From Phaeodactylibacter luteus (GTDB lineage Bacteria > Bacteroidota > Bacteroidia > Chitinophagales > Saprospiraceae), in contig NZ_VOOR01000011.1 in the NCBI RefSeq assembly GCF_007993045.1, positions 62,001 to 126,000 on the forward strand: a stretch of DNA of 64,000 nucleotides. The letters run 5' to 3'. A program made the translations under genes and the position numbers. This document shows, one piece after another, positions 3,871 to 58,170 of the stretch. Under the pieces are notes generated by a model. That model saw only the letters and a list, made by a program, of their open reading frames with translations. It did no database searches and was not told the DNA's origin. Numbering within the stretch: position 1 is the first letter of the stretch; the number at the start of each line of letters is the position of its first letter.

Positions 3871-4072
3871 GGGCGTGAATCAAAATGTCGCAGGCATTTA
3901 TACTTCCCAGGCTTTAGCTTGGCGTTGGCCTAGCGCTGCGAAGGGGTGGCAAGCCCGGCAGGGCCGAGCGGACAGCGAGCCCCGTAGCATAGCGGCACCT
4001 GCCCTTTGGCAGGGGCAGGCCCCCATCCTTGCAGTAGGGGCAGGCCCAAAAAGACAATCTGGTTTGTGCCCG
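3871..4072 (+). repeat. Interspersed structured repeat, copy 1
   Basis: This 202-bp copy starts GGGCGTGAATCAAAAT and ends TGGTTTGTGCCC, whose reverse complement is GGGCACAAACCA, so the ends form an imperfect terminal inverted repeat. The core contains GGGCCGAGCGGACAGCGAGC and CCCCGTAGCATAGCGGCACC, and GC-rich hairpins such as CCTGCC/GGCAGG. Related copies lie at 9479, 15743, 31561, 38411 and 57971. Its reading frames are not protein-like. The rest of the 902-bp gap to 4603 holds a low-complexity stretch and the AT-rich susC leader. Confidence 0.85.
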
Positions 4073-4476
4073 GCTCCCCCTTGCCTTTGGCACGCTGTGA
4101 ACGAGCATAATTTGGCGGCAGCCAAAGCCGAGCGCAAAAAACAACCGCCTCCACACGCACAAAAACAACAGCACGAAACACCATATCCCCAAACACCCCT
4201 ACCGTGGCTCAGCCCCATATACAATCTTGCACATTTTGGCAATATGCAAGATTAAGCCACTTTTATTGCCCCTTTTCCACTCTTCCTCCCCAAGTGCCCA
4301 AATCGGACCTAAGTCAAGGGCATCAAAATCCACTTTTTACAAGTTATAATTCTATAAATAATATTATTTCAAAATTTAAATTCAAAAATCAGCTATTCTA
4401 GATATAAAAAACAAAGTCAAATGCCGCCCCCTTATCCCTCTTCCCTTTACAAAATCATGTATCAATCCATTTTTAT

Positions 4477-4516
4477 TTTGCAATAATTTGCAGTTTTATG
4501 TGCAAAATACTGCAAA
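4477..4516. promoter_or_regulatory. Inverted repeat upstream of susC (operator-like)
   Basis: TTTGCAATAATTTGCA (4477-4492) and TGCAAAATACTGCAAA (4501-4516) are reverse complements at 14 of 16 positions, separated by 8 bases. Each arm itself contains two TTTGCA half-sites. It sits 88 bases upstream of the susC start in an AT-rich stretch, a position that suits a regulator binding site or a hairpin in the leader. No TAnnTTTG promoter element could be assigned to susC with confidence. Confidence 0.5.
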
Positions 4517-4603
4517 TTAAATATCTTACTTCTTTAAAAAGCCACAATACCCCACTTTTCAAGTGAGCATTGTGTTCATTTTTTTCCATACAATCAAAAC
4601 AAA

Positions 4604-7600
4604 ATGAAAAGACATGCGAATTTCAGGCATTGGATACTGCCAATGCTTTTGCTTCTAGGTGTTTCGGCGGCCATAGGGCAAACCCGTATTACAGGGACGG
4701 TAACAGATTCCGAAACCGGCGCACCGCTCATCGGGGCAACAGTAGAAAACGTAGGCACCAGCAATGGCACGGTCACCGACCTTGATGGCAAGTATGCCAT
4801 CACTGCCGAATCAGGCACAGCCTTGCGGTTTTCCTATATTGGGTACTCCAGTGTGGAAAAAACCGTAGGGGCTGCGTCCGTTATAGATATCGCCCTGTCC
4901 TCGGATGGCGAGAACCTTGACGAAGTAGTCGTAACAGCTCTGGGTATCCGCAAGGAAAAGAAGGCGCTCACTTATGCCGTGCAGACCCTTCAATCTGAAT
5001 CTATTGTAGAGTCTCAGCAGCCCAATATCGTGAACAGCCTTCAGGGCAAAGTAGCGGGGGTGATGATCAACAACTCCAGTGGGGCACCTGGCGCTGCTTC
5101 TGTCATCATGATCAGAGGAGGCACTTCGCTGAGCGGCAACAATCAGCCCCTCTTCGTGGTCGATGGCATCCCAATAGACAACAGTGCCCCTATTGGCGGA
5201 GGGATAGGGCTTAGCGCTCAAAACACCAATAATAGCAACCGGGGGATAGACATTAACCCGGAAGACATAGCGTCTTTGACGGTACTGAAGGGGCCTGCTG
5301 CTGCGGTGCTGTACGGCCTGCGCGCTTCAGAAGGCGCCATCATCATCACTACAAAAAAAGGCCAGGCAGGATCCTTCCGCATCAACTACAGCAATGCGTT
5401 CTCCTATGATGTCGTCAACAAGGTCCCTGAATTCCAGACGGCCTATAAGCAAGGTATAGATGGCAACTTCAACCCCGATGCACGAGGTTCATGGGGCCCG
5501 GCCTTTGGCCCCAACGAAACCATTTACGACAACCTTGGCAATTTCTTTCAGCCAGCGGTTACGCAGCGCCACGATATTTCCGCTTCTGGCGGAAGCGAAC
5601 GCAGTACGTTCTATCTTTCTGCGAGCCGTTTTGACCAGAACGGCATTGTACCGAATACTAGCTTCGACAGGACCTCTTTCAGGCTATCTGCAGACAGCAA
5701 GATTGCCAAGAACCTCCGCGCAGGCGGTTCGGTCAACTATATCAACTCCCAAAACCAGTCTACCCTTGGCGGCTCAGGTATTGCGGAGACCAACATCATC
5801 GGTGCGACAGGCGGCGGTGGCGGTGGCACGATAAGGGGTTTGTACAACTGGCCATTAAATGACGATGCCCGCAATTACATCACTGAAGATGGCAAGCAGC
5901 GCACCCTGCTCGGCGTTGAAAATGATGCTTCTTTCGTAGACAACCCCTATTGGAGTGTATACAACAACCCTACGAACAGCAACGTCAACCGTGTCATTTC
6001 GACGGTCAGCCTGAGCTACGACCCTTTCTCCTTTCTCAACATCACTTACCGTGCAGGTACCGACTTTTACGATGAGAAGTTTACCTCTATCCGCAGTGCG
6101 GGCACTGTGATTGGAGGAGAGGAAAAAGGGGCTATCACAGAGGTAGACCGCTTCAATCAGATTACCACCTCGACGCTTGTCGTCACCGGCAAAAAATCCT
6201 TAGGCAGGCACATCAATACCAGCCTCGCTTTGGGGCACAACGTAGAATCGGCCCGCAGCACTTCTGCCAACTGGTATGGCCGGAACTTTATCGTGCCAAC
6301 TTTTGCAAGCATCAACAATGTGCTTCAAAACGAAAGGGTGATCTCAGCAGGTGGTGCGCGCCGCAGGATTGTAGGCGCTTTTGCTGATTTCAATGCAGAT
6401 TGGAAGTCCATTTTCTTCCTCAACATCCGCGCCCGCAACGACTGGTCTTCTACACTCCCTGTAGCCAACCGCTCCTTCTTTTACCCCTCTTTCAGTGGCG
6501 GGATCGTACTGACCGACCTGCTCAACGAGATAGGAGTGGCCAATGGTGAAAGCGACTTCATCCCCTATGCCAAGGTGCGCGCCTCTTGGACCCGGGTAGG
6601 CAAGGATGCGCCCCCGCACGTGCTCGGCAATACCTACTTTAACACTACCAACTCTTTTACCGCAGGCCCTAGAGGTTTTATTGCCAACGTGTACGCTTTC
6701 GGTGCACCTGCACTGCGCCCTGAGTTCACTAATGCATTCGAAGCCGGTGTCGATATCCGATTGTTCAAAGGCAAGATTGGCATCGATTTCACTTATTACA
6801 ACATGAAATCTGACGATCAGATCCTTTTCACCCGCGTACCGCCTTCCGCTAGTTCTTTCATCTCCTATCTCAATGGCGGGAGGATAGACAACGAGGGCGT
6901 TGAGCTGATGGTCAATGCCAGGCCAGTAAAGCGGAGCAACTTCACCTGGAACATAGACCTCAACTTTTCCCGCAATACGTCTACTGTAGTAGAACTGCCC
7001 GGCACATTAGACCGGGTAGAGCAATCTGATGCTTCAGTCGATGGCTTTGTCGCCCAGGGAGCCGGTTTCCTTGGGCAGTCTTTGTTTGGCATCAACGGCG
7101 ACGTATGGAAGCGCAATGAAGACGGGAAACTATTGCTCGACGATATGGGCTATCCACAGGTGAGCGCTATCAAAGAAGTGATTGGGGACAGAAACCCTGA
7201 TTTTATTGTTGGCCTGACCAACTCGCTACGGTTTGGCAATTTCAACTTCTCCTTCCTTTGGGATTTCCGCATTGGAGGGGATATTTACAATGCTACCGAA
7301 AATGCACTAGTGCGCAATGGCTTAAGCACCAAAACGCTCGAACGCGGGTCTACTACCGTATTTGATGGCATCATCGAGTCAACCGGCGAGCCCAATACCC
7401 AGCAGGTGGTATTAGATCAGAACTACTACCAGACGATCCTGCGCGGCAACGGCCAGCTCTTTGTAGAAGACGGCAGCTGGTACCGCCTTAGGTATGCGAC
7501 TTTATCTTACCGCATCCCCAAGCCATTGCTGGAGCGCATCAACGTTAAAGGGCTAGAAGTGTACGCTACCGGCAGAAACCTCATCCTCATCACCAATTAT

Positions 7601-7726
7601 TCAGGCGTAGACCCCGAGGTAAGCTCAGGCGGGGCAGGCGTGCCTGGGACAGGCGCTATGGGCATGGACAACTTAGGCACCCCCTCGACCAAAGGCGCAG
7701 ACTTTGGCCTTAGGCTGAGCTTTTAA
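4604..7726 (+). CDS. SusC/RagA-type TonB-dependent outer-membrane transporter
   Basis: SusC-like transporter (1,040 residues, usual length) that imports oligomers or peptides across the outer membrane with its SusD partner and TonB energy. Residues 1-25 form a signal peptide. A carboxypeptidase-D-like regulatory domain (TGTVTDSETGAPLIGATV onward) fills about 27-105. The SusC-specific stretch with LDEVVVTALGIRKEKK leads into the plug domain, with LQGKVAGVMI and a later IRGGTSLSGNNQPLFVVDG. The remainder is beta-barrel ending in an aromatic residue (LRLSF). susD follows 31 bases downstream. No glycoside hydrolase, peptidase or anti-sigma gene adjoins, so the substrate is unknown. Confidence 0.95.
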   Translation: MKRHANFRHWILPMLLLLGVSAAIGQTRITGTVTDSETGAPLIGATVENVGTSNGTVTDLDGKYAITAESGTALRFSYIGYSSVEKTVGAASVIDIALSSDGENLDEVVVTALGIRKEKKALTYAVQTLQSESIVESQQPNIVNSLQGKVAGVMINNSSGAPGAASVIMIRGGTSLSGNNQPLFVVDGIPIDNSAPIGGGIGLSAQNTNNSNRGIDINPEDIASLTVLKGPAAAVLYGLRASEGAIIITTKKGQAGSFRINYSNAFSYDVVNKVPEFQTAYKQGIDGNFNPDARGSWGPAFGPNETIYDNLGNFFQPAVTQRHDISASGGSERSTFYLSASRFDQNGIVPNTSFDRTSFRLSADSKIAKNLRAGGSVNYINSQNQSTLGGSGIAETNIIGATGGGGGGTIRGLYNWPLNDDARNYITEDGKQRTLLGVENDASFVDNPYWSVYNNPTNSNVNRVISTVSLSYDPFSFLNITYRAGTDFYDEKFTSIRSAGTVIGGEEKGAITEVDRFNQITTSTLVVTGKKSLGRHINTSLALGHNVESARSTSANWYGRNFIVPTFASINNVLQNERVISAGGARRRIVGAFADFNADWKSIFFLNIRARNDWSSTLPVANRSFFYPSFSGGIVLTDLLNEIGVANGESDFIPYAKVRASWTRVGKDAPPHVLGNTYFNTTNSFTAGPRGFIANVYAFGAPALRPEFTNAFEAGVDIRLFKGKIGIDFTYYNMKSDDQILFTRVPPSASSFISYLNGGRIDNEGVELMVNARPVKRSNFTWNIDLNFSRNTSTVVELPGTLDRVEQSDASVDGFVAQGAGFLGQSLFGINGDVWKRNEDGKLLLDDMGYPQVSAIKEVIGDRNPDFIVGLTNSLRFGNFNFSFLWDFRIGGDIYNATENALVRNGLSTKTLERGSTTVFDGIIESTGEPNTQQVVLDQNYYQTILRGNGQLFVEDGSWYRLRYATLSYRIPKPLLERINVKGLEVYATGRNLILITNYSGVDPEVSSGGAGVPGTGAMGMDNLGTPSTKGADFGLRLSF

Positions 7727-7757
7727 TGAATGACCAAACCAACTAAACTACTTTGAA

Positions 7758-9272
7758 ATGAAACGGCTATCTATAATTGTTCTCACAGCATTCAGCCTAC
7801 TGCTGAGTGCTTGCCAAGAATTTTTAGACATCAATGCTGACCCCAACAATCCGCAGGAAATCCCTCTGGAAAGCAGATTGATCGGGGCCATCACCATGAC
7901 CAACGGAGCAGCGATGTGGAGAGGGGCCAGAGAGGTTTCCGCGGTGTGCCAGTATACCGCTTCTGGCAGCGAAGCCAGCTCTCCAGAAACCTGGCGCTTC
8001 ACCTCCAGCTACTTTTTCTGGCAAAATGCTTACACTTGGGCCATCCCCAACTGTGTAGATATGGTTGTCATGGGCAAGGCTGAGGGATCGCCCCATTTTG
8101 CCGGGGCCGGCCGCACCCTGGAAGCACTGGTATTTGGCATGCTTTCGGATCAGCTTGGCGCAATCCCGGTAAGCGAAGCCTATGATGGCGTTACTACCGC
8201 CCGCCTGACCCCTGCTTTTGATTCTCAGGAAGAAGTATACGCACAGGTCATCGAAAAACTCGACGAAGCCATCGCGCTCTTTAATGAGCCGGATAATGCC
8301 AAAGGGCTAAACCTAGACAATGGCGACATCATGTATCAGGGGGATATCGACAAGTGGCGGCGCTTCGCTTATGCGCTAAAAGCGCGCTACCTCAACCACC
8401 TGAGCAAAAAGAGCATTTACGACCCTCAGGCTGTCTTGGAAGCTTGTAGCAATGCGTTCAATGCAGACGGCATGGATGCTGAATTCCCCTATCTGGATAA
8501 TGGCACGGCTACCGAGGCCAACCCTTGGAGCGATAAAGGGTACGGGGGGTTCACCAGCGCAACTGCACCCCGATATTTCTCTTATAGCCAGTTTTTTGTA
8601 GACCTTATGAAAACGGCACCTGTCACCAACGACAGCTTGCTGGACCCCCGCATCGGGATCATCATGAACCCGGCCCCTTCTGATGGGGAATTCAGAGGGC
8701 TGATACCAGGGCAGGGCGTCCCCGGCGGCATAGAAGCCAATGGAGACAACTATGGCAGAGTTACGGGTGGTTTTTACAGCCAGCCCACTTCGCCATTCCC
8801 TTTCATAACTTACGCAGAAGTCAAGTTCATAGAAGCGGAAGCACGGCTCCGTTCTGGAGATAGTGGCGGAGCGCTCGCAGCCTATCAGGAAGGGGTAAGG
8901 GCCAATATGCGCAAATTGGGCGTAGCTGCAGCAGATATTGATGCCTACTGGAACACATTGGCAGACAATGGGGTACAGCAGCACTTCGGGGATCTTACCT
9001 CTGGGCTGAGCCACATCATGCGCCAAAAGTACATCGCACAAGTCTTCAACCCAGAGACTTGGGTAGATTTGAGGCGAATGGATTACAGCCAAGATATCTA
9101 TGGCCCTTCCCTCAATAGGCCCACCAACCTGAACCCGCTCTTCTCTGAGGGCGAGTGGATCCGTGCCATGATCGTAGAAGGGAACGAAGAGGTGCGCAAC
9201 GGAGCAAACGTTGGCGATAACACTCCTGCCTATCGGTTGAAGACGCCACTTTGGTGGGATACCCTTGATTAA
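7758..9272 (+). CDS. SusD/RagB-family outer-membrane nutrient-binding lipoprotein
   Basis: SusD-like lipoprotein of 504 residues that caps the SusC barrel and captures substrate on the cell surface. The N-terminus is a lipoprotein signal (MKRLSIIVLTAFSLLLSAC, Cys19) followed by EFLDINADPNNP, the start typical of the SusD-like_2 subfamily. Helical TPR-like segments and the C-terminal motifs RQKYIAQVFNPETWVDLRR and YRLKTPLWWD are as expected. It follows susC by 31 bases and is closed by a terminator, making a two-gene unit. The SusD-like_2 type is often found beside small SusC transporters for non-glycan nutrients, but that use here is inference. Confidence 0.93.
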   Translation: MKRLSIIVLTAFSLLLSACQEFLDINADPNNPQEIPLESRLIGAITMTNGAAMWRGAREVSAVCQYTASGSEASSPETWRFTSSYFFWQNAYTWAIPNCVDMVVMGKAEGSPHFAGAGRTLEALVFGMLSDQLGAIPVSEAYDGVTTARLTPAFDSQEEVYAQVIEKLDEAIALFNEPDNAKGLNLDNGDIMYQGDIDKWRRFAYALKARYLNHLSKKSIYDPQAVLEACSNAFNADGMDAEFPYLDNGTATEANPWSDKGYGGFTSATAPRYFSYSQFFVDLMKTAPVTNDSLLDPRIGIIMNPAPSDGEFRGLIPGQGVPGGIEANGDNYGRVTGGFYSQPTSPFPFITYAEVKFIEAEARLRSGDSGGALAAYQEGVRANMRKLGVAAADIDAYWNTLADNGVQQHFGDLTSGLSHIMRQKYIAQVFNPETWVDLRRMDYSQDIYGPSLNRPTNLNPLFSEGEWIRAMIVEGNEEVRNGANVGDNTPAYRLKTPLWWDTLD

Positions 9273-9303
9273 GCGCAATTAGCATTTTGAGTTTTGTACA
9301 ACA

Positions 9304-9338
9304 GCCCGGCTTCGATATGTTTTCGAAGCTGGGTTTTT
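9304..9338 (+). terminator. Terminator of the susC-susD unit
   Basis: AGCCCGGCTTCGA (9304-9315 region) pairs with TCGAAGCTGGG (9323-9333), loop TATGTTT, followed by five T residues at 9334-9338. It lies about 30 bases after the susD stop. Confidence 0.85.
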
Positions 9339-9478: not shown

Positions 9479-9676
9479 GGCCCAAACCGCATTGCCTTTT
9501 TTCCAGCCTGCCCCTTCCGCAAGGGTGGGGCCTGCCCCTGCCCGATGGCAGGTGCCGCTATGCTACGGGGCTCGCTGTCCGCTCGGCCCTATCGGGCTTA
9601 CACCCCTTCGCAGCGCTAGGCCAATGCCAGGCTAAAGCCCGGAAAGCATAACCCCCTTCGGCATTATTGCCCCCCC
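9479..9676 (-). repeat. Interspersed structured repeat, copy 2 (inverted)
   Basis: The reverse complement of the family: it begins GGCCCAAACC and contains GGTGCCGCTATGCTACGGGG, GCTCGCTGTCCGCTCGG and CAGCGCTAGGCCAATGCCAG. The far end (9650-9676) is more diverged but still recognisable (GGCATTATTGCCC). It lies between the susD terminator and the CUB/PKD protein gene. The remaining gap up to 9893 is AT-rich near its end, with TAGATTTG at 9829-9836 as a possible -7 element but no matching -33. Confidence 0.82.
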
Positions 9677-9893
9677 AACCACTTTTAGCTCGAAAGCTGC
9701 CTTTCAGCCTCTACAAAGCAGCCCTGGCCCGATAAAGGAAGCCCCTCTCCCTGCCTGCCTTTTGTCTCCAATTGAGCACTTAGGTATTATTTGAAATCAG
9801 CTAGGAACCAACCTAATGCCTAGCCGTTTAGATTTGAATTCAATATGATGCTATTAGGAATTGAATTGTAAACTCTCAAAACAAACCCCTAAA

Positions 9894-14765: not shown

Positions 14766-14787
14766 CCCCCTTATTACCTCCTTTGAC

Positions 14788-15739: not shown

Positions 15740-15742
15740 CTT

Positions 15743-15803
15743 GGGCGTGAACCAAAATGTCGCAGGGGTTTATGCTTTCCGGGCTTTAGCCTGGCATTGG
15801 CCT
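15743..15803 (+). repeat. Interspersed structured repeat, truncated copy 3
   Basis: Only the left 61 bases of the family remain (GGGCGTGAACCAAAATGTCG then TTTCCGGGCTTTAGCCTGGC and ATTGGCCT). It starts 4 bases after the preceding stop codon. The rest of the element is absent, so this is a deletion derivative. Confidence 0.8.
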
Positions 15804-23760: not shown

Positions 23761-23761
23761 C

Positions 23762-31560: not shown

Positions 31561-31733
31561 GGGCTCAAACCAGGCTGTCGTTTTTCTAGTGGGGGCCTGC
31601 CCCTGCCAGCAGGCAGGTGCCGCTATGCTGCGGGGCTCGCTATCCGCTCGGCCCTATCGGGCTTGCCACCCCTGCGCAGCGCTAGGCCGATGCCAGGCTA
31701 GAGCCTAAACGCCTGCGATATTTTGGCTCACGG
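31561..31733 (-). repeat. Interspersed structured repeat, copy 4 (inverted, short form)
   Basis: Reverse-complement copy, 173 bp, beginning GGGCTCAAACCAGGCTGTCG and ending near TTTTGGCTCACGGC; the termini are inverted repeats of each other. It lacks one internal GGGGCAGGCC unit found in copies 1, 2 and 6. It sits between two convergent genes (31182 and the TolC-type gene). Confidence 0.83.
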
Positions 31734-31761
31734 CTGTAAAACTTCGCTTCAGGCAAAGCCG

Positions 31762-38410: not shown

Positions 38411-38626
38411 GGGCGTGTGCCAAAATGCCACAGGCGTTTAGGCTCTAGCCTGGCATTGGCCTAGCGCTGCGGAGGGGTATTAGCCCGATAGGGCCGAGCG
38501 GATAGCGAGCCCCGCAGCATAGCGCCCCCTGCCGCTAGGCAGGGGGAGGCCCCATCACATTGTGCAGGGGCAGGCCCCTATCCTTGCGGAGGGGGCAGGC
38601 AAAAAATGACAATCTGGTTTGCGCCC
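38411..38626 (+). repeat. Interspersed structured repeat, copy 5 (long form)
   Basis: This 216-bp copy starts GGGCGTGTGCCAAAATG and ends TCTGGTTTGCGCCC; the ends are imperfect inverted repeats. It carries an extra internal GGGGCAGGCCCC unit compared with copies 1 and 6. CTATT occurs directly before the left end (38405-38410 region) and CTATT again just after the right end (38629 region), a possible target duplication. Confidence 0.85.
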
Positions 38627-47900: not shown

Positions 47901-50900
47901 ATCGTTGCACACCGCAGCAGGCTCAATTTGGTCTTCAATACAAAAGGGCGCCTCGGTGACTGTGAAGTTGTTGCAATCGTCTGTCACTTTATAACGGATA
48001 GTGTGGCAGCCGATCGGGATGCCCGTCACAAAACGGGATTCACCGGGCTGAATCGTCTGGAATACAGTCGGTATTGTATCGTAGCCGATCAACAGCCCAA
48101 ACTGATTGACCAGGGGCACGACCTCATCAATTACGATGGAGGTTTGTACCTCCCAGCCAGAGCAGTTGTCTGTCACTCCCGGCATAGGCACCACAATAGC
48201 TGCGGTACAATCGAAGGTGCCCGTCGAGTAGACGAGCGGCTCGGGGATGCCGTCATTGTTCGTATCCGGGTTCGGAATGGTAACAGTAGGCCCTTCTACG
48301 TCCCCTACCCGTATGATCTGCAGTTGTGTCTCTACATTTTGCCCATTGGGCGCACAAAAGTCGATGAGGGTCCACTCCCGCACAATCCGGAAAGTGCCTT
48401 CACACTCGAACAGAGGTGCGCTGTCCTCGTAGGTCACCCCGATATTGCAGAGGCTCTGCCCAATATTGTAAGTACCGTAGAAGCCATCAAGCTGCGGAGC
48501 TGTAGAAGGGTCGGGCAGAGGGTTACCTGCCACATCGGTCTCATAGCTTTCTGTACAAGAGTAGAATACCGACTCAGGGAAGGGCATGATGTCAGACAAG
48601 CTTGCCGGGCGGAAGGTGATCTGCTGTGTACATTGCGTAGCATTGCCCGCAGGGTCGGTCACCGTGAAGGTCCGGTTGATGATCTGATCCTCACAGCTTT
48701 CTTGCCCCATCACCATCACGTCCTCGAAAGTAACGGTATTGAAATCGCCACAGTTGTCTAAAATCTGAGGCTGCCCAAGATCGGCCAGGCTGCCTACGTT
48801 GTCCATCACCAGGTCTAGCTCATTGCAAAGGAGATCGGCTTCTTGTGTGGGGCAGACAATCGTGGGCGAGGTCTGATCGGTTACTGAAATACGGCTTTCG
48901 CAGAAATTGCCACAGAAGGGGTCTACTACAAACGCGAACAACAGCTGCCCTACCTCTGCGCCAGTAATCGTATTGCCAATGCTCTGCCCAGCCTCGTTGA
49001 ACAGCTCGACCTGCAGGGAGTTCATACAGTCGTCTTCTCCTTCTAGGAGCATATCTGGAGAAACCACTATCTCACAGCTTGTGCCAAAGGTCACGTTGAT
49101 CTGATCGTTGCACGCAAACGCGGAAATGTCTTCCTTGTTCACTGTAACTGTTGCAGACTGCTGTGGGCAGCCGCCCATGCCACCTACCGTGTACACAAAA
49201 GTGTAAACCCCCATAGGCACATTGGTAAAGTCTACAGCTGCCGGGTTGACCAAGCTGACGCCGGAGGCCGTAGACTCCGTCCAGAAACCGCCCGGGCTTG
49301 GGTTTCCGCCTAGCCCATCAAACAGGTTCAGGATGACTTCATCCGGGGTGCAGGTCAGGCAGACCTCTAAAGTACCGTTGATCCCCGCATTGAGCCCATC
49401 GCAGTTGTCCAAGACAATCATGGCCGGGTCGTGGTCGTCCTCGTCCAAAATGGCCACGTTGCTGCCGGGGGCACCTGTACCGTTGCCATTGATGGCGTTG
49501 TCGGCAGCTGTGCCCGGAGCGCCGCCGGCATCATTGGCAGGGTTGGTATCATAAGGAGAATCGATATCTACAGGAGGCGTATTGCCAGCCACCTGATCGT
49601 CATCAGCTGCGCTGATCTCGGCAAAATTCGTAATGACAGAGCCCGTGTATGCCGGGTCTATCTGAAAGCGGATAGAAACAGTAGCAGTGCCACCGCCCGG
49701 AGCCACAGGGCCAGGGATTACCCGTGATGCCATACCTGAACCCAGCGCCCAGTTGGCATCATCCAAGATGAGGCCGGCAGGGATATAATCTGTCACCGTG
49801 ATGTTGTATGCCGGGAAATCACCTTGATTGGTGATGGTGATGTTGTATACCACATCATCGCCCAACGCATAAGGAGCCGGCGTCTGACCGGTATTCACCC
49901 GCTTTGTCAGTGCCAGGTCGAACACCGCCTCTGGTACTTGGGTGACAATGACTGTAGCGCTGTCGTAATCGTCTTCATTGGGCGCAGCCGCACCATTGCC
50001 AGGCGTGGAATCCAAATCCCCGGCCCCGATAGGGTTGCCTGCAGCCAGTATCTCAGCAGTATTGATGATGGACTCACCGCTATAATCCGCATCAATGATA
50101 AAAGTAATCGGAACCGTCACAATCTGCCCTGCGCTAATGCTCTCGATAGGTTGATTGAGAGTAGCTACGCCGCCAAGCAGGGTCCAGTCTGAGTCGTTCA
50201 GTATAAGCCCCTGGGGGACAAAGTCCGACAGCTCTACATTTTGGGCAACCAGCCCACCTTGATTATTGACGTGCAGGTTGAAGGTCACCTCATCTCCCGG
50301 CTCAAATGGCCCGACAGTAGCGACGGTCTTGACCAGCGCCAAGTCGAAGTTGCTCAAGAATACCGGGAAGGTAACGCTGCTGAAATCATCTTCCTGTGGC
50401 CCGCCGAAACCATTGTTTGGCGTAGAATCTATATCGGGAAGCCCCGCCGGGTTCGTTGCCGCACTGATTTCGCCAAAGTTAGTGATGGAGCTGCCTTGGA
50501 AGGCAATGCCGATGGCCAGATCCAGTGTGACTGTAGTGGATGCCCCCGGCGCCAAGGACGCAATTGGGTTGTTCAGGACAACTGTACTCCCATTTGAGGA
50601 CCAATTCAGGTCTGCTGGCAGCATGCCCTGCGGCACAAAGTCGCGCAAACGGATATTCTGCGCAGTGACATTGCCTTCGTTCGTTACCGTAAAGACGAAG
50701 GTCACTAGATCGCCGGGCAGGAATGGCCCTTGTGATTGCAGCCCTTTAGCGAGTGAGAGGTCGAACACCTGCTCTGTCTCTGGGCTGACCGTGATGGCAG
50801 CACTATCAAAGTCGTCCTCACCCTGCCCAGCCAGGCCATTGCCCGGGGTGGAGTCTTCGTCACTCAGGCTGAGGGGGTTGCTGAAGGAGAAGATTTCTGC

Positions 50901-53900
50901 AAAGTTATTGATGGACTGCCCGGCAAAATTGCCGTTGATCGTAAAGGTGATGTCCCGGGATACCGTACCGCCCACCGGAATATTAGCAATAGGCGTCTGC
51001 AGGCGGGCTGTAGCCCCTTGCATCTGCCAGTTGTTGTCGTCTAAGGTAAGCCCAAGGGGCACATAGTCTGCAAGCTGCACTTGCTGTGCACTGGTTGTCC
51101 CCTGATTTTCTACCGTAATGGTAAAGGTCACCGTACTGCCTGGGACAAATGGGCCAGGGGTTGCGGCTGTGTTCAGGCTCTTTTCCAAGGCCAGGTCAAA
51201 AGTTTGCTGTGGATAGGTAATGGTAATGGCAGCGCCATCGAAGTCGTCTTCATTTTGCCCGTTCAAGCCGTTGCCGGGGACAGAGTCCTCATCATTTAGG
51301 CCCAAGCCGTTGGTGGCTGACAATATCTCGGCAAAGTTGCTGATGGACGGGGCGGTGAAATCATCTGCGATCAGGAAAGATATGTTCACTGATTGGCTGT
51401 TGCCAGGCTGCAGATTGGTGATGGCCCCGTTGTAAACGGCATTGCCCCCGCTTATGGACCAGGCCGGGTCATTGAGCACGAGCCCTTCCGGGATAAAATC
51501 GCGCAAACTGACCGTCTGCGCCGTCAGGTCGCCCTGATTGGACACCGTGAGGCGGAAGGTCACTGCACTGCCCGGAGAGAATGGGCCAGGCGTCAGTGTA
51601 GTATTCAATGATTTCACCAAGGCCAGGTCAAACTGATTCTGGATCACAGCGATAGTGGCCCCGTCGTAGTCATCTTCGTTCGCACCCTGAACACCGTTGC
51701 CCGGCGTAGAGTCTACATCGGCCAGGCTGAACCCATTGCTTGCGGCTGAGATTTCTGCAAAGTTGGTCAATGAAGTTTGGGCGAAAGCCCCGCTGATGAC
51801 AAAACGGATGTCCCGGCTGAGGGTCGCGCCAGGGGCTAGGCTGCCTAGCCCGCCATCGAGCTGGGCAAAGCTGCCGTTCTGCATCCAGTTCGGATCGTTC
51901 AGGATAAGGCCGTTGGGGATGTAATCGCGCACTTGAACATTCTGCGCCTGCACATTTCCCTGGTTGGTGACACTGATGCGGAAGACCACTTCATCTCCAG
52001 GCAGGAACGGGCCGGGGGTTTCGCTCGTTTTCAGCGATTTGCTGAGCGCCAGGTCGAAGGTACGGGTTTCCATATTGATGGTCGCCCCGTCAAAATCGTC
52101 CTCCCCAGCTTCTACTGCACCGTTGCCCGGGGTAGAATCCACATCAGGCGATCCAGCTGCGTTCGAAGCACTAAGGATTTCAGCGAAGTTGGTCAGTGTT
52201 GTGCCCGAATAGCCGCTACCGATGAACAGCGAAATATTGCGGGTGACCGATTGCCCAGGGGCCAGGTTGACAATAGGCTGAAGCAGGCGGACCTGGTTAT
52301 TGCCTATGCTTTCCCAGTTGTTGTCGACGAGGAAAGTGCCATTTGGCAGGTAGTCCACCACTTGTACTGCTGTTGCGGTAGCTTCACCTTCGTTAGTGAC
52401 TGTAATGCCAAAGGTAACAGACTGCCCTGGGCTGAAAGCCGCGCCCTCTGTAACCACGGTTTTTTCCAAAGACAGATCAAACTCCTGCTGACAGGAAATA
52501 GTGATATCAATGGCATCGTCATCGTCTTCATCGTGGCTGCCATTCGCAGGCGTGGAATCCACATCGGGCTGAGCATTGCCTGCTCCGCGGATCTCCGCGC
52601 AGTTAGTAGCCACTGCACCACAGGCTATATCACTCCGCACTTGGAAAGTGATGGGCACGGAAACGGTCTGCCCTGGCGCGATAGACGGTATAGGATTGAT
52701 GAGCCGGAGGGTATTGCCACCTGCAGCCTGCCAATCTGCATCTGCCGGCAGCAGCTGTTGGAAAGGGTAGTAATCGTTCAGCCCTACGTTGACTGCTGTG
52801 ATATTCCCTTGGTTGACCACATTGAGGCTGTAGGTAACGAGCTGGCCCGGGGCATACGGCCCTTGAGTAAGCACCGTCTTGCTCAAAGCCAAATCAAATT
52901 GCTGCGCAATGGCAATCAGGCTGTTATCGAAGTCGTCTTCGTTGGGGTCCCCATTATCGGGGGTGGAATCATCATCAGGCAAGCCCAGAGGATTGCTGAA
53001 GCTACGGATCTCTGCTGTATTATTGATGGATGTGCCTGTGTAGCCACTATCGATATTGAAAGTAATGTCTACGTTTTGAGCGGCACCGCCAGGGATGACA
53101 GCTATAGGATTATTCAGGGTAGCGATGCCGTTGGCCGCAGTCCAGTCTGCGTCAGCAAGGGTCAACCCTTGGGGGATATAGTCGGACAATTGTACCTGTG
53201 TAGCCTGTAGCGTACCCTCATTTTTGACTTGAAGGGTAAAGGTCACGGTACTGCCCGGTGCGAACGGGCCGCTGCTGCTGACCGATTTGTTAAGGGAAAG
53301 GTCAAAGTTCTCAACCGCTTCTGTCACCTGAATGGTTGCACTGCCGTTATCGTCTTCGGCATTGTCTACTCCATTAAAAGGGACAGAGTCGATATCCGGC
53401 AAGCCCAAATTATTGGAACCTGAGATGATTTCCGCGCGGTTGGTGATGCCGAGCCCGCTCATGCCGTTCTCTACCTGACAGGTAATAGACACGGTGGCGG
53501 AAGCTCCCGGGGCAATAACAGGGATGGGCACCATCAGGAGCGCCGTGCTCAGGTTGGGCATCCAATCGGGGTCAGCCAGCGAGAGCCCGTCCGGCAGGTA
53601 GTCGATCACACCGACATCAAAAGCAGTCAGGTTGCCTTCGTTGGTGACAATAATGTTGAAAGTCACCAGCTGTCCTGGAGCAAATGGGCCGGGGCTGCTC
53701 ACTTCTTTGGCCAGCGAAAGGTCAAAGACATTTTGTGGCTGCTCCAAAATGATGGTAGCTGTTGCATCGTCATCTTCGCTATTGCTGAAGTTGCCTGGGG
53801 TGGAGTCTGTATCGGGCTCATTGGCCGGGTTGTTGAAGCTCTTGATCTCACCGGCATTGGCCAGGCTAGTAGCTTCTACCCCTTCGCCAATGCGGAAAGT

Positions 53901-56900
53901 GATCGGCACGTTGACACTTGCGCCAGGCAGAACAGCCAAGATGGGCGTATTGAGGTTTGCCTGCCCTCCGGACATAAACCAGTTGTTATCTTCCAAAGTC
54001 AGGCCTTCCGGCACGTAATCAGCAAGCTGTATGTTTGTCGCCAGCAGGGAGCCTTCATTGTGGACGCGGAAAGTAAAAGTCACGAGCTCGCCCGGGGCGA
54101 ACGGGCCGCCCAGCGGGGCCAGCTTTTCCAAGGCCAGGTCAGCCGTTGGCTGAATGACAATCAGCTCACTGTCCTGATCATCTTCTTCAGGTATATTATT
54201 GCCAGGGGTAGAGTCTTCGTCAGCCGCGCCGCCTTCCGCGGAAAGGATTTCAGCCCTGTTGACAATATTAGGCTGTGCAAAAAAGGCATTGATCGAGAAG
54301 GTGATATCCCGCGCCACCGTCTCGCCTGGCGCAATACTAGCGATTGGAGACAACAGCGTGGCTTCCCCATCTGCTACCGCCCAGTTGTTATCGTTGACTG
54401 TCAGGCCATTGGGGATAAAATCTCGCAATTGGACATTAGCTGCCTCCAAGTCGCCTTCGTTAGTGACGGCCAGGGTGAAGGTCACTTCCTGCCCAGGCTC
54501 AAAAGGGCCTGCCCCATTCACTGTCTTTTCCAGTGAAAGGTCAAAGACGGCCGTAGCTTCTACCGGGATTTCGACGAAGCCATAGTCATCTTCCCCTTGG
54601 GCATCATTGCCGTTGATAAAGTCAGGCTGAGAATCCAGATCGGCATAGTTCACAGCATTGTTAGCTTGCCCAATTTCTGCAGCATTGATTATTGAAGCCC
54701 CATCAAAATCCGGGCTGATGCGGTACGTCGGGGTGAGCACCAGGGAATCGCCAGGTGCAATAGCCGGCAAAGTAAAAATATTACCGCTCTGATGGTAAGG
54801 GCCGGCATCGACCAGGCTGAGCCCAGCAGGGAGGTAGTCGATCACCCTTGCAAAGGTGCTGCTCAGCACGCCCTCGTTCTTGACCGTAATATTGAAGCTG
54901 ACCAGGCTGCCCGGCTGAAATGGGGGCGGGGTCAATGTGGTATCTATTGTTTTGGACAGTGCAAGGTCGAAGTAGACTTCCTGGAAGCCGGCATCCAGCG
55001 AATGGTTTGCCAGGCCAGCCTGCCCTGCAGTATAAACAATCAGAGGCAAGCCTGAGGGGACATCGCCAGGCAGGGATTCAGCAGGCAGGCCAGGGTCAAC
55101 GGATGAATCGTTGAAAGCGGGTACAGCGCCCTCGCCCTGCAACTTAGCCGTTGGCTGAAATATCCGGTTGTTCAAGCGGATGTACTGATTAGAAGGGTTC
55201 TGATCATCCCGCCCGAATACGATATAGTAGGTTTCGCCAGGCAGTATACGGCCTTCGCTGGCCCACTGCTCCTGCAGGTTGTTCGAATGGGTAAAGGTAT
55301 ACCGGCCTTCCGCGTTGGTGGCCGTACGGGCCAGGTACTGCCCGTTGGCATCATAAAGACTTACCCGAAGCCCAGGCATAGGCGGCTCACAAGGATTTTG
55401 CACCCCATTGCCGTCCTCGTCTTCCCATACATAATCGCCCAGCTGAATAGCAGGTGGCTGGCAGATACAGAAGTGCAGGTCGCTGATGCCAATCATTTGG
55501 GAGGCTGGGTCAGTTCCTCCTGTAGCGCCCGCCTCGAGGCGCACTACTACGGAGTCTATCTTTTCAGGTATCTGCACCCGCACATTGCCTGCCGTGTTGA
55601 CCGGATTGAGGCTTAGGGTACCGCCCAGGTAAGTATTGGCATTGAGCACCGTCGTGGCCGGGCCCGTATAGCTGCCATCGGCGCTGATGTTGCCTAAGGC
55701 AAGCGGGACCTCCACCCCTTCCAGGAAAGCCCGGACCGTGACGTGGTCCTGATAGCTGCCTGGCAGGGCATCGATGCCCAGCACAGCAAACTCAACTTGT
55801 TCTACTGGCAGGTTGAAGCTAAAACCGCTTTCTACATACTGCCCTGCCGCCGAAGCGTTCATAGCTAAAGGCCAAAAGCCTCGGGTACCGCCCAGCGGTG
55901 TCTGATCGTTGTCCACTTTAAACCCGCTGCTTGCGGCAATGCCGGAGGGGTCGCTGTTGTGCACAGAAACAGTTGCCGTGCCGACCATGAGCGGCAGCGC
56001 ATCTGCTGCGTTGTCCGCTTGCAGGATCCAATCGAGGCGCCGGGTACATTGAGGGGCGACCGGGACAGGGCTTTCGCACCAGGCGATATCGCCAAGGCCA
56101 ATGGCCTGCAAGCCAGGGTTGACTGCCCCCGAAGCCGTTGCAGTATAAGTGATGGACACTTGGTCCACCGTTTCCCTAAACTCCACTATAACGTTGCCCC
56201 GGGTAGAGGCATCATTAACGGCTGTGGTGCCTTCAAAAACCCCATCGCCGAGGTAGTTGACATCCAGCCCGATGATGGTCTCATCCAGATCTAGTGCTAC
56301 CGGGCGGCCGCCAAGGTAAGCCTTCACCACAACGCGGTCTACGGCATCCCCATTGACATCGATATCCAAAATGGGCACAATGAGCCGCTGCACAGGCCGG
56401 TTGAGGGAAAAGACGACCCCTACGTCCTGCGGGCGGGCGGGGTTGCTGTTGTCGCCTTCCATTTCCAGCAGGTAGTACTCCTGTTCGCCCCCCAGCATAT
56501 TGTGGTATACACGATGGGTGTAAGGCGTGCCCCCATCTGTGCTCCGTGCCCAAGCGATTTCATCTCCACCGATTTCGCGGGTAAAGGGAGGGAAAGGGAA
56601 AGGGATCGCTCCATTGGCGACCTGGCCCCAATCCAGGGTGTTAAAGTTTTCTATGCAGTTGTTCACCGGGTTGTCCGGGTTGAAACAATCCTCCTCCGTA
56701 TTGACCGGTGCGAAGCCTACAAGCAGCGTACAATTGCCCGCATCCGTGAATTGCACATTCGACTTGTGCTGTGTGCCCAGGAAAGTGGAAAACAAGTTGC
56801 TGCCAGAAGGCGGGCGGAACTCCACGCGGTAAGCAGCCCCGGGCTCAAGCCCGGTAATCCGCCACTGCCCATCGGCATTGGTAAAAGCACTGCCCGCCAG

Positions 56901-57431
56901 CTGGCCTTCACAATCATAAGCTTCCACCAAGACGTTGGGCAAGGCAGGCTCTGCGCCCATTTGGCCATCCAAATTGAAGTCTTGCCAGGCAAGGCCACCG
57001 ATTTCATCGCTATCCCCTTCGCAAGGGGGCGTACAGGCTATTGCATCCACGAAGGTGTCCGCACTGCAACCGGCTGAACCGGGCACGCTAATCTCTACGG
57101 GGAAGCCGCTGCCAGGGCCAGGCAGGGGCAGGGAGAGGGTAGCATTCCCGTTATCCAAAGCGATGGGGAAAGCCTGGGTACTGCCTGCCACTGATATATT
57201 GAGCGCCTCTGCATCTACACCGGACCAGGAAAAAGCGATTTCCAATTCAAATGCGCTGTTCCCATCGGCAAAATTGCAGGACACCTCTGCATGATCCAGG
57301 CTAACCGCACAGGATGCTTGTGCCCGGAGCAGGGCGGGTGCCAATAGCAGTACTAGCCCTGAGAGGAAGGTAGCCGCATGGCGGCGAGCTTGGGTTTCCA
57401 GGCTGTTCAGTAAGGTGTAGCAATGTCTCAT
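44910..57431 (-). CDS. Giant 4,173-residue surface protein with a DUF11 array, cysteine-rich module and T9SS domain
   Basis: The ATG at 57431 is chosen because it leads into the export signal (FLSGLVLLLAPALLRAQA); in-frame ATGs at 57452 and 57521 are less likely. In order: SdrD/Cna-B-like domains (GLAWQDFNLDGQ, LGDYVWEDEDGNGVQNPCEP) and choice-of-anchor-type domains; about 13 DUF11-type repeats between residues 820 and 2,660, each opening FDL(A/S)L.K and containing (D/N)(F/Y)(I/V/L)P.G; a cysteine-rich module (about 2,767-3,780) paralogous to the 38794 protein; a dockerin-like pair (NGISTLDLITIQQHLLG and DANRSNAITTLDMIEIQKLI); a cohesin-like domain (LEGYQFTLEFDPAVLQ); and a T9SS sorting domain (HQNRPNPFGESTVIGFEL). 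It is likely a long fibre or adhesin outside the cell. Confidence 0.93.
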   Translation of the reverse strand: MRHCYTLLNSLETQARRHAATFLSGLVLLLAPALLRAQASCAVSLDHAEVSCNFADGNSAFELEIAFSWSGVDAEALNISVAGSTQAFPIALDNGNATLSLPLPGPGSGFPVEISVPGSAGCSADTFVDAIACTPPCEGDSDEIGGLAWQDFNLDGQMGAEPALPNVLVEAYDCEGQLAGSAFTNADGQWRITGLEPGAAYRVEFRPPSGSNLFSTFLGTQHKSNVQFTDAGNCTLLVGFAPVNTEEDCFNPDNPVNNCIENFNTLDWGQVANGAIPFPFPPFTREIGGDEIAWARSTDGGTPYTHRVYHNMLGGEQEYYLLEMEGDNSNPARPQDVGVVFSLNRPVQRLIVPILDIDVNGDAVDRVVVKAYLGGRPVALDLDETIIGLDVNYLGDGVFEGTTAVNDASTRGNVIVEFRETVDQVSITYTATASGAVNPGLQAIGLGDIAWCESPVPVAPQCTRRLDWILQADNAADALPLMVGTATVSVHNSDPSGIAASSGFKVDNDQTPLGGTRGFWPLAMNASAAGQYVESGFSFNLPVEQVEFAVLGIDALPGSYQDHVTVRAFLEGVEVPLALGNISADGSYTGPATTVLNANTYLGGTLSLNPVNTAGNVRVQIPEKIDSVVVRLEAGATGGTDPASQMIGISDLHFCICQPPAIQLGDYVWEDEDGNGVQNPCEPPMPGLRVSLYDANGQYLARTATNAEGRYTFTHSNNLQEQWASEGRILPGETYYIVFGRDDQNPSNQYIRLNNRIFQPTAKLQGEGAVPAFNDSSVDPGLPAESLPGDVPSGLPLIVYTAGQAGLANHSLDAGFQEVYFDLALSKTIDTTLTPPPFQPGSLVSFNITVKNEGVLSSTFARVIDYLPAGLSLVDAGPYHQSGNIFTLPAIAPGDSLVLTPTYRISPDFDGASIINAAEIGQANNAVNYADLDSQPDFINGNDAQGEDDYGFVEIPVEATAVFDLSLEKTVNGAGPFEPGQEVTFTLAVTNEGDLEAANVQLRDFIPNGLTVNDNNWAVADGEATLLSPIASIAPGETVARDITFSINAFFAQPNIVNRAEILSAEGGAADEDSTPGNNIPEEDDQDSELIVIQPTADLALEKLAPLGGPFAPGELVTFTFRVHNEGSLLATNIQLADYVPEGLTLEDNNWFMSGGQANLNTPILAVLPGASVNVPITFRIGEGVEATSLANAGEIKSFNNPANEPDTDSTPGNFSNSEDDDATATIILEQPQNVFDLSLAKEVSSPGPFAPGQLVTFNIIVTNEGNLTAFDVGVIDYLPDGLSLADPDWMPNLSTALLMVPIPVIAPGASATVSITCQVENGMSGLGITNRAEIISGSNNLGLPDIDSVPFNGVDNAEDDNGSATIQVTEAVENFDLSLNKSVSSSGPFAPGSTVTFTLQVKNEGTLQATQVQLSDYIPQGLTLADADWTAANGIATLNNPIAVIPGGAAQNVDITFNIDSGYTGTSINNTAEIRSFSNPLGLPDDDSTPDNGDPNEDDFDNSLIAIAQQFDLALSKTVLTQGPYAPGQLVTYSLNVVNQGNITAVNVGLNDYYPFQQLLPADADWQAAGGNTLRLINPIPSIAPGQTVSVPITFQVRSDIACGAVATNCAEIRGAGNAQPDVDSTPANGSHDEDDDDAIDITISCQQEFDLSLEKTVVTEGAAFSPGQSVTFGITVTNEGEATATAVQVVDYLPNGTFLVDNNWESIGNNQVRLLQPIVNLAPGQSVTRNISLFIGSGYSGTTLTNFAEILSASNAAGSPDVDSTPGNGAVEAGEDDFDGATINMETRTFDLALSKSLKTSETPGPFLPGDEVVFRISVTNQGNVQAQNVQVRDYIPNGLILNDPNWMQNGSFAQLDGGLGSLAPGATLSRDIRFVISGAFAQTSLTNFAEISAASNGFSLADVDSTPGNGVQGANEDDYDGATIAVIQNQFDLALVKSLNTTLTPGPFSPGSAVTFRLTVSNQGDLTAQTVSLRDFIPEGLVLNDPAWSISGGNAVYNGAITNLQPGNSQSVNISFLIADDFTAPSISNFAEILSATNGLGLNDEDSVPGNGLNGQNEDDFDGAAITITYPQQTFDLALEKSLNTAATPGPFVPGSTVTFTITVENQGTTSAQQVQLADYVPLGLTLDDNNWQMQGATARLQTPIANIPVGGTVSRDITFTINGNFAGQSINNFAEIFSFSNPLSLSDEDSTPGNGLAGQGEDDFDSAAITVSPETEQVFDLSLAKGLQSQGPFLPGDLVTFVFTVTNEGNVTAQNIRLRDFVPQGMLPADLNWSSNGSTVVLNNPIASLAPGASTTVTLDLAIGIAFQGSSITNFGEISAATNPAGLPDIDSTPNNGFGGPQEDDFSSVTFPVFLSNFDLALVKTVATVGPFEPGDEVTFNLHVNNQGGLVAQNVELSDFVPQGLILNDSDWTLLGGVATLNQPIESISAGQIVTVPITFIIDADYSGESIINTAEILAAGNPIGAGDLDSTPGNGAAAPNEDDYDSATVIVTQVPEAVFDLALTKRVNTGQTPAPYALGDDVVYNITITNQGDFPAYNITVTDYIPAGLILDDANWALGSGMASRVIPGPVAPGGGTATVSIRFQIDPAYTGSVITNFAEISAADDDQVAGNTPPVDIDSPYDTNPANDAGGAPGTAADNAINGNGTGAPGSNVAILDEDDHDPAMIVLDNCDGLNAGINGTLEVCLTCTPDEVILNLFDGLGGNPSPGGFWTESTASGVSLVNPAAVDFTNVPMGVYTFVYTVGGMGGCPQQSATVTVNKEDISAFACNDQINVTFGTSCEIVVSPDMLLEGEDDCMNSLQVELFNEAGQSIGNTITGAEVGQLLFAFVVDPFCGNFCESRISVTDQTSPTIVCPTQEADLLCNELDLVMDNVGSLADLGQPQILDNCGDFNTVTFEDVMVMGQESCEDQIINRTFTVTDPAGNATQCTQQITFRPASLSDIMPFPESVFYSCTESYETDVAGNPLPDPSTAPQLDGFYGTYNIGQSLCNIGVTYEDSAPLFECEGTFRIVREWTLIDFCAPNGQNVETQLQIIRVGDVEGPTVTIPNPDTNNDGIPEPLVYSTGTFDCTAAIVVPMPGVTDNCSGWEVQTSIVIDEVVPLVNQFGLLIGYDTIPTVFQTIQPGESRFVTGIPIGCHTIRYKVTDDCNNFTVTEAPFCIEDQIEPAAVCNDDLNISLGGDGAARVFASDVDEGSNDNCEIATLEVRRLVELDPGDCSDVTDYYTDWGPFVDFTCCDAGRMVTIELRVTDIYGNQNICWLEVLVEDKINPFCIAPPSTSISCADLPGSFVPEDTQALEALFGFAEGDDDCGPVSVQEFAADVNLDDCGFGTIVRTFQAADAAGNLSTNTCSQVITVEQEFNYTIKFPKDEVSNCGVPSPDTILLNGMGCDMLSVNVEDEIFTPNGSSSDPACYKIFRRYRVQNMCEWDGISGPLIVGRNEDCDGAPGDEDVWVVRTPGSTFIDRDGNPNNSVPAFGTKGTSCDGNTNPAGYWRTVQSVGYWQYTQIIEVRDTEAPQISFTDPGQFCSINQVTCNANVDFPFVVAENCDPENLSISVSLDAGANGSIDFNVSSELSGTYPNYSIGGEYPIGSHAFVVTVEDGCGGNTAVATLPFEVVDCAAPTLTCLNGLTFNLQALPPDTDIDGDGQIDIAGAGIWASDFHINESDCSDDTIGFAINLPGETPDFSQTSLYFTCEDVGTIDVEVYFFDSAYNPEAVQPDGSIGGPNWDFCTTFIELTDNNSVCDNPEAAPMMAGLISRENDDAVQDVEVALSGAMSSMAMTSSNGTYEFAELPMGYDYTLTPSRNNDHRNGISTLDLITIQQHLLGISLLDSPYKRIAADANRSNAITTLDMIEIQKLILGEITEFTNNTSWRFVDREFSFPVPSNPWFSVFPESISVNDLDSDVMSNDFVAIKIGDVNNSATTTQFSGLEERSSETVALRLEDHHLQADSQVIVPFAVAAADQLEGYQFTLEFDPAVLQLADVSYGIADENSLGLYDAAQGRITASWYDQHAFEWPEDGQLELFALTFEVLSTGGGALSSELLLSSAVTTAEAYRRDGARLGVALDFGQALPTGTASATAMPFRLHQNRPNPFGESTVIGFELPEAGTAQLQVYDLQGRLLKRVAGHYAAGYHEVALRREDLGTTGVLYYQLQAAGQTATRKMVLLK

Positions 57432-57676
57432 GTGACTAAAATTTGTAAGCATAATGAAGCTGGCGGGGTGCGGGCACCCCAATAGTTTAAGGGTATATGT
57501 TTGGGATTCAACCGTCAGCATCCTTGTGGGAGCTGCCGCTACACAGTACCGTGTGCAAATTCCGCGCCAATTTTTTTTTATAGACGCATCTTTTGCCGAA
57601 CGAGTACATGTTTTTTTTGCGCAGACAGCATTTCACTGTCCCACAAATTTTCTGGAATACTTAAACAATTGAAAGG

Positions 57677-57698
57677 TTTGTAAAGGGCTCTTTACAAA
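57677..57698. promoter_or_regulatory. Perfect inverted repeat upstream of the 4,173-residue protein gene
   Basis: TTTGTAAAG (57677-57685) and CTTTACAAA (57690-57698) are perfect inverted repeats with a four-base spacer, about 250 bases upstream of the start at 57431. The same 840-bp gap (57432-58271) also holds a small hairpin GGGGTG/CACCCC at 57465-57480, an orphan terminator and repeat copy 6. Confidence 0.5.
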
Positions 57699-57885
57699 TA
57701 GTGCAGATGTCAATACCGAGCGCATGCCAGAAGGGCGGCATACGGTTTGTCCAAGTTTGAATATCGTGCAAAGTGTAGGTTGTAAAGCGAGGGCATCCGT
57801 TCCCGTTTGCCTTCGCTCAGCAAAAGTAAGGAAAACTTCCCACTTTATTGATTTTTAGCCCCGCTCTCTTGTGGATGCCTACCAT

Positions 57886-57946
57886 AAAAAAACCGGGCAT
57901 CTCTGGAGTATCCCAGACTGCCCGGCACAGGTGAAGTTTATTCACC
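57886..57946 (-). terminator. Orphan minus-strand terminator with a second hairpin
   Basis: Reading the minus strand, GGTGAA/TTCACC (57946-57930) forms a small hairpin. Then CCGGGCAGTCTGG (57925-57913) pairs with CCAGAGATGCCCGG (57906-57893, one bulge) and runs into seven T residues (57892-57886). No minus-strand gene lies between this and the minus genes beyond 59156, so it may end a small RNA or block antisense reading into the giant gene's leader. Confidence 0.6.
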
Positions 57947-57970
57947 AAAAACCGTATTCTTAGTGCAACC

Positions 57971-58170
57971 GGGCGTGAACCGAAATGCCGCAGTCGTTGA
58001 TGCTTTTCGGGCTTTAGCCTGGCATTGGCCTAGCGCTGCGAAGGGGTGTAAGCCCGATAGGGCCGAGCGGACAGCGAGCCCCGTAGCATAGCGGCACCTG
58101 CCCGCTGGCAGGGGCAGGCCCCCTCTTTACGGCAGGGGCAGTCCAAAAAACGACATGATGGTTTGCGCCC
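57971..58170 (+). repeat. Interspersed structured repeat, copy 6
   Basis: The best-preserved 200-bp copy: GGGCGTGAACCGAAATGCCG at the left, GGTTTGCGCCC at the right (reverse complement GGGCGCAAACC). GTGCAA occurs at 57963-57968, two bases before the left end, and again at 58171-58176 immediately after the right end, a possible target-site duplication. The core matches copies 1 and 5 closely. Confidence 0.87.

Follow-up and report, generated by a model that had tools for sequence, protein, structure and literature searches.

We analysed a 64,000-nt stretch of the Phaeodactylibacter luteus genome (assembly GCF_007993045.1, contig NZ_VOOR01000011.1, positions 62,001 to 126,000; the window in the following) for a family of intergenic repeats with inverted ends, i.e., miniature inverted-repeat transposable elements (MITEs), whose interior carries a folded core. 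A preliminary description had listed six copies in both orientations between genes, and all of them were found at these positions and in intergenic location. The inverted ends are longer than described, i.e., about 20 bp, and imperfect (GGGCGYRAACCARAWTGTCG); they align between copies. The copies, their cores as recognised by the covariance model R1 and the nearby gene regions are, in window positions:

3871..4071, + strand: MITE copy 1, both ends present, flank duplication not recognisable (2/8 bases)
3927..4022, + strand: predicted structured RNA core of copy 1 (R1, 89.5 bits)
9479..9680, - strand: MITE copy 2, degenerate ends, flank duplication unscorable
9528..9622, - strand: predicted structured RNA core of copy 2 (R1, 88.0 bits)
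15743..15803, + strand: copy 3, left-end fragment with inverted end and left hairpin, no R1 match
31561..31735, - strand: MITE copy 4, flanks match in 6/8 bases
31593..31688, - strand: predicted structured RNA core of copy 4 (R1, 87.1 bits)
38411..38626, + strand: MITE copy 5, flanks match in 2/8 bases
38458..38552, + strand: predicted structured RNA core of copy 5 (R1, 91.4 bits)
57971..58170, + strand: MITE copy 6, flanks GTGCAACC / GTGCAATG, matching in 6/8 bases
58027..58121, + strand: predicted structured RNA core of copy 6 (R1, 87.1 bits)
2412-3701, 4604-9272, 44910-57521, 58272-59036: neighbouring gene regions

The model thus recognises five of the six copies. The copy at 15743 is the left-end fragment it had been taken for; it stops at GGCCT and lacks the RNA core. 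Within the window the flank duplication is worn, with 6/8 bases left at 57971 and 31561 and 2/8 at 3871 and 38411. Nearby genes encode a serine hydroxymethyltransferase, a TonB-dependent receptor with a SusD-like partner, a repeat-bearing open reading frame of 4203 aa and a LytTR response regulator, whose likely start (58272) lies about 100 bp past the end of copy 6. Open reading frames called across some of the copies are mechanical.

Copies are not confined to the window. A core pattern with at most 3 mismatches yields 723 matches in the 6.0-Mb P. luteus genome (358 on one strand, 365 on the other), while the reversed pattern, used as control, yields none. Contiguous reading covered about 21% of this genome and, for the Saprospira chromosomes discussed below, about 9% each. 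In 864 kb of P. luteus we find 101 core matches at up to 5 mismatches, of which 42 show both ends (at most 6/20 mismatches each) at a length of 158-234 bp. Among these complete copies, 8-base direct repeats in the flanks are exact in 15/42 cases compared to 0.35 in shuffled pairings, and at least 7/8 bases agree in 23/42 compared to 0.65. The duplication is sharp at 8 bp, i.e., length 7 and length 9 are each observed in only 1/42 copies. The other 59/101 core matches lack one or both ends or hold nested small MITEs, a few of them being chance matches. Using the covariance model, 147 copies are found in 1.264 Mb, 85 with both ends and 42 with a 7-8 base duplication, counts that are somewhat lenient because the best among several candidate ends was taken. 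These numbers show that copies with inverted ends of about 20 bp inserted singly, duplicating 8 bp of target, and that many copies shed or replaced their ends while the core stayed. Inverted ends, target duplication and genome-wide core matches also support the proposal that the repeat is MITE-like, non-autonomous and has multiplied throughout the genome.

The element shares with MITEs that it is short, non-coding and intergenic, with inverted ends, a target duplication of constant length and high copy number. It differs in that its interior fold is conserved across genera and also occurs without these ends, that its neighbours alternate in strand, and that the regions searched revealed no autonomous partner. 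Its left hairpin has served, at CTAG, as insertion site for two or more further families of small MITEs (ends AGTGCCTCAAGCC and AGTGGTCTGT), and a third (ends AGAGCTAGTT) sits inside the core loop. A CTCTTCGTT...CGCCTTGAT motif seems common to the interiors of these families, which may contain a conserved fold of their own. These nested elements are located at:

L042:7702-8231: nested small MITE
L033:15188-15577: nested small MITE
L042:14177-14565: nested small MITE
L057 and L058 region (C236:149742-150100): nested small MITE

That the repeat is structured had been guessed from its hairpins, and this holds to a larger extent than supposed, i.e., compensating changes across genera define a three-way-junction fold. 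The core comprises 95-120 nt (118 positions). We collected 286 copies, of which 262 were parsed and 24 failed. Among the parsed copies, a variable pair of helix P2 occurs as C-G, U-A or A-U. P2 furthermore shows a coupled two-pair switch (alignment A2, columns 10-11 with 102-103), i.e., copies carry either (C.U, U-A) or (A-U, U.G) and hardly ever a mixture of both, with main classes of 130, 47, 21 and 17 copies. Helix P1 is fully paired in 115/213 copies with scorable P4, compared to 47.8 if partners are taken from other genomes.

For the structure test we used an alignment of 31 copies (23 from other genera, 8 from P. luteus) with 34 base pairs. Paired cells make up 89.1% compared to 73.5% in shuffled alignments, two-sided changes are observed in 22/34 pairs compared to 15.7, and the covariation score is 0.382 compared to 0.129 (reached in 0/500 shuffles). 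The shuffling ignores the relatedness among copies, which is corrected in part by sliding the structure along the alignment; slid versions are at most 45% paired. RNAalifold alone, applied to an earlier alignment, predicts 14 pairs (P2, P3, H1, H3), 6 of them with two-sided changes, and misses P1 and P4, which are misaligned there. Within paired columns, G.U combinations outnumber A.C (27 vs 7), which favours the given strand as the folded one. The compensating changes show one three-way junction kept across genera, and the interior of the MITE is a conserved, strand-specific folded element that most likely acts as RNA.

A scan of the window with 4227 Rfam families gave no match at gathering score. 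Below threshold, mir-761 reaches 25 bits on a single variable hairpin, against a cut-off of 82, and group-II-D1D4-4 scores 16.5 bits on copy 6 (cut-off 49, E 0.099), beside further such matches of Xoo1 and TCV_Pr. HEARO or IscB-associated RNAs are mobile structured RNAs, and the element resembles HEARO in being a structured RNA that is present many times per genome and frequently lacks an open reading frame. It differs from them in that the Rfam scans did not match it to HEARO and in having a target duplication in P. luteus. A search confined to open-licence literature found no description of the repeat.

Next to P. luteus, the element is abundant in further genomes of the family. The core pattern (at most 2 mismatches) is present in 11/148 other family genomes, with 135 matches in G013, 150 in G036 (both metagenome-assembled genomes, MAGs, of Saprospiraceae) and 138 in Saprospira grandis Lewin (G057). 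The covariance model, whose E-values are rough, finds it in 40/248 family genomes when the best 14 candidates per genome are scored. In a phylum sample of 296 genomes (best 11 scored), 4 are positive, namely P. luteus, two further family members and a single genome from elsewhere in the phylum. Over 864 kb of P. luteus the model counts 98 copies and over another 400 kb 49; stretches of 400 kb hold 123 in S. grandis Lewin and 129 in strain DSM 2844, such that an S. grandis genome would perhaps carry about 1,300-1,400 copies if this density holds. About 55% of the Saprospira intergenic gaps of at least 40 bp hold a copy (100/180 in Lewin, 102/188 in DSM 2844). The searched viral contigs gave no exact core match, and only three plasmid records, all from Saprospira, carry the element, with 21 and 20 copies in the 50 kb read of each of two plasmids. 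These two plasmids of 53-55 kb (L363, L364) carry guaA, guaB, purH, purB, purD, purN and purF, and given these purine biosynthesis genes they look like chromids. A core match in a Flavobacteriales MAG (L161) is upheld by the covariance model; exact 20-base core matches in Lysobacterales, Chloroflexi and Bacteroidetes MAGs (L193, L217, L225, L268) are unconfirmed by it.

The MITE ends do not follow the core into all of these genomes. Samples from Saprospira, G036 and G119 (64, 25 and 8 copies) show neither target duplication nor strongly conserved flanks, and a first test of 20 G013 copies saw no duplication either. A related end (GGGTGCATTTCAAAATGTCG) is nevertheless present on the left of 12/40 G013 copies in a 17-base test, and 6/38 carry both related MITE ends (at most 5/20 mismatches each), among them two with exact 9-base flank duplications and one with 7/8. 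We therefore reject a MITE packaging confined to P. luteus. An end of the G013 type is found in 0/252 Saprospira copies.

The positions of the Saprospira copies are conserved between two strains. Lewin and DSM 2844 are about 94% identical, and 47/49 Lewin copies over 142 kb have a counterpart in DSM 2844 that matches in aligned position and in strand, which fits retention. Saprospira copies are dense and stable in place and strand between the strains. The preliminary description stood as far as the MITE is concerned, while it missed these copies without recognised MITE ends or target duplication, the fold common to several genera and the strand alternation reported next.

From one copy to the next, the strand usually changes. 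This holds for 101/122 neighbours in Lewin (binomial p ~5e-14) and 107/128 in DSM 2844 (p ~2e-15), two tests that are not independent of each other. For P. luteus, 69/92 and 35/45 opposite neighbours in separate stretches add up to 104/137. G013 shows 22/25 (2/3 for the three pairs of an earlier 8-locus set), and MAG-63 33/40, with loci picked for holding a copy. On the Saprospira plasmids 19/20 and 18/19 neighbours are opposite. A lower threshold adds two Lewin copies, each an opposite-strand copy in a same-strand gap, resulting in 105/124. Thus, an opposite-strand tendency is seen in all four genera tested.

The orientation does not follow the genes. With a simple gene caller, the strands of upstream/downstream genes relative to the RNA are ++ 33, -- 33, -+ 22 and +- 26 in Lewin and ++ 31, -- 36, -+ 25 and +- 25 in DSM 2844, and gene strand is no predictor of copy orientation. 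On the annotated plasmid the copies alternate through co-directional rows of pur and paa genes, even within operons. Only 42/85 copies in P. luteus and 55/114 in Lewin share the strand of the downstream gene, and we rejected a cis-regulatory leader or riboswitch for want of a fixed orientation to it.

As controls we used other repeats. Another MITE family of P. luteus changes strand in 6/12 pairs, and most Saprospira control k-mers taken from repeats stay on one strand. Two overlapping k-mers from one Saprospira repeat alternate (28/35 and 29/32); this second, small S. grandis repeat (L283-L322) forms a doublet of inverted arms CCTAGGGACAAGCCCC, in most cases separated by about 147 bp, such that its alternation lies within the unit. 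It has 34 arm matches in 400 kb of Lewin and 8 in DSM 2844.

One account of these data is an ordinary MITE whose fold serves transposition only, without host role, and whose alternation is a by-product of insertion. It would explain the inverted ends, the 8-bp duplication, the MITE ends in G013 and a copy number that ranges from 0 to more than 700 within the family. Yet the core outlasts the ends and the copy places are stable between Saprospira strains. Furthermore, a copy inserting singly between two opposite-strand neighbours adds one same-strand pair, so that random insertion drifts to 50% opposite neighbours, while 76-84% are seen. An excess over 50% calls for strand-targeted insertion or loss of mis-oriented copies. 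We thus consider the ordinary MITE unlikely.

The age of the copies was assessed via their duplications. P. luteus copies with a 7-8 base target duplication are opposite to other copies in 42/55 neighbour pairs, i.e., alternation is not confined to old copies. With regard to distance, adjacent copies in P. luteus are opposite in 84/101 pairs below 10 kb, 14/22 at 10-15 kb and 6/14 beyond, which points to a range of roughly 10 kb.

Such a limited range would also be expected if direct neighbours were unstable, i.e., if homologous recombination or a resolvase deleted the sequence between direct repeats and inverted ones survived. A serine resolvase gene is indeed present in the P. luteus and Saprospira genomes. 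However, exact runs shared by Saprospira copies have a median of only 15 bases and reach at least 25 in 67/400 random pairs (P. luteus: median 23, at least 25 in 40% of pairs), and direct copies 4-8 kb apart are common in Saprospira as second neighbours. For P. luteus pairs at 8-10 kb, 19/21 adjacent but only 7/18 non-adjacent ones are opposite, albeit in small numbers. In addition, no resolvase was found in G013 and G036, though both alternate, and inversion between inverted copies within an operon would do harm as well. We therefore regard instability as improbable.

The preliminary description had suggested looking for a transposase gene with matching ends, and none was found in the parts of the P. 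luteus genome examined. End pairs 250-6000 bp apart in the 864 kb reveal no autonomous partner; they are copies with nested small MITEs or unrelated pairs. PF12762, PF01609 and PF00872 have no match in the genome, IS6, IS66, IS1 and others not being part of the search. No DDE_Tnp_1, IS1595 or Transposase_mut family match thus accompanies the about 700 MITE copies. For PF01610 (ISL3), one intact-looking transposase and a fragment are present, and we rejected this candidate as its flanks are without MITE ends. A Y1_Tnp gene of the type of REP-associated tyrosine transposases (RAYTs) lies between two copies on opposite strands, at distances of about 300 and 400 bp. The two loci are:

L365; P. luteus C35:86306-87010: ISL3 transposase
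L374:1115-2339, i.e., P. luteus C236:102761-103985: Y1_Tnp gene

The latter gene relates to a further explanation, in which the element is a giant single-stranded DNA fold in the manner of repetitive extragenic palindromic (REP) elements, bacterial interspersed mosaic elements (BIMEs) or REP doublets forming hairpins (REPINs), moved now or formerly by a Y1 (RAYT-type) transposase with compact inverted pairs as mobile unit. Alternating orientation of REP elements in BIMEs is described in PMC2817692. Our element likewise is high-copy, extragenic, folded and alternating, here at kilobase scale; Y1_Tnp genes are present in 5/6 genomes tested, and divergent Saprospira pairs are down to 48 bp apart. 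REPs are hairpins or palindromes of 20-40 nt, while the copies here are 120-nt three-way junctions that alternate singly, kilobases apart, across genes and inside operons. RAYT or IS200-type movement is not known to make an 8-bp duplication or DDE-style ends, and P. luteus copies have both. The link to RAYT is weak as well, i.e., G013 alternates although no Y1_Tnp was found among the 6 candidates scored, and of the Saprospira and G036 Y1_Tnp loci 4/6 have one copy within 1.5 kb and 2/6 none, which is about the background expectation. On balance, a REP-like origin appears quite unlikely.

The gaps between copies bear on whether the site acts as DNA. In Saprospira, the median gap is 1.2-1.3 kb for divergent and 3.5-4.0 kb for convergent pairs. 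This asymmetry, together with an orientation that ignores genes, would suit a polar DNA-level site for a chromosome-organising protein, where divergent copies form boundaries and convergent ones face small domains. On the other hand, duplex DNA would need no compensating changes in seven helices, and the gaps in P. luteus are symmetric (6.4 and 6.4 kb, set 1). We rate such a site as distinctly improbable. A cassette idea, in which divergent blocks are mobile cargo, could draw on one Lewin block of 1394 bp that corresponds to 58 bp in DSM 2844. It was rejected since other strain differences lie in convergent blocks; ten proteins from divergent blocks, among which are members of the aspartate-semialdehyde dehydrogenase and MeaB families but not a single transposase, count against it as well.

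We favour a folded, polar intergenic element that was spread as a MITE and is kept by selection in alternating order, a reading to which we give almost an even chance and in which selection and function are what we infer. A DDE-type transposase, lost or unseen, would have acted in trans to spread it. Its core would then have been retained as a folded segment of transcripts that acts as polar boundary of small gene blocks, and wrongly oriented copies would be lost. Given alternation, it follows from geometry that reading through an inter-copy block on either strand passes exactly one sense copy, i.e., at entry in + ... - blocks and at exit in - ... + blocks; the role of this copy is conjectural. 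Boundary action might consist in transcript processing, in halting read-through or in organising the chromosome.

Several observations weigh against this selective reading. Alternation is incomplete, i.e., 17-25% of neighbours in the larger sets share a strand, and it is weaker if the plain pattern replaces the model (94/136 in P. luteus, 59/101 in Saprospira, most of whose copies the pattern misses). Among true neighbours that both bear a target duplication 9/12 are opposite (p 0.07); considering duplication-bearing copies with the rest removed yields 19/34, and the remaining copies alone 61/95. Neighbours are no more alike than random copies, so that nothing points to a pairing specific to neighbours. 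Sequence gained or lost between the Saprospira strains lies in both kinds of blocks. Two genomes of the same genus contain 1 and 0 recognised copies (best 14 candidates each), such that the element appears dispensable there. Finally, action as RNA is argued from covariation and from the excess of G.U, both of which single-stranded DNA might show as well if folded.

Carried further, the data would suggest an orientation code of Saprospiraceae, in which up to more than 1,000 copies of a folded polar RNA split a genome into blocks, a MITE writes the marks and selection holds their alternation across genes and within operons; we put this forward tentatively, as a possibility against which we would rather wager. 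If true, each gene block would meet one sense copy whichever strand is transcribed. High-copy bacterial repeats are mostly taken as junk or passive binding sites, while the element described here is structured, covaries and fills a few percent of some genomes, and adds a large RNA family that Rfam lacks. Its neighbour order, beyond what insertion alone should give, would be a selectable genome-scale property measurable from sequence. The element may represent a novel kind of boundary in bacteria, at the RNA or DNA level, and is a case of a MITE spreading a conserved fold.

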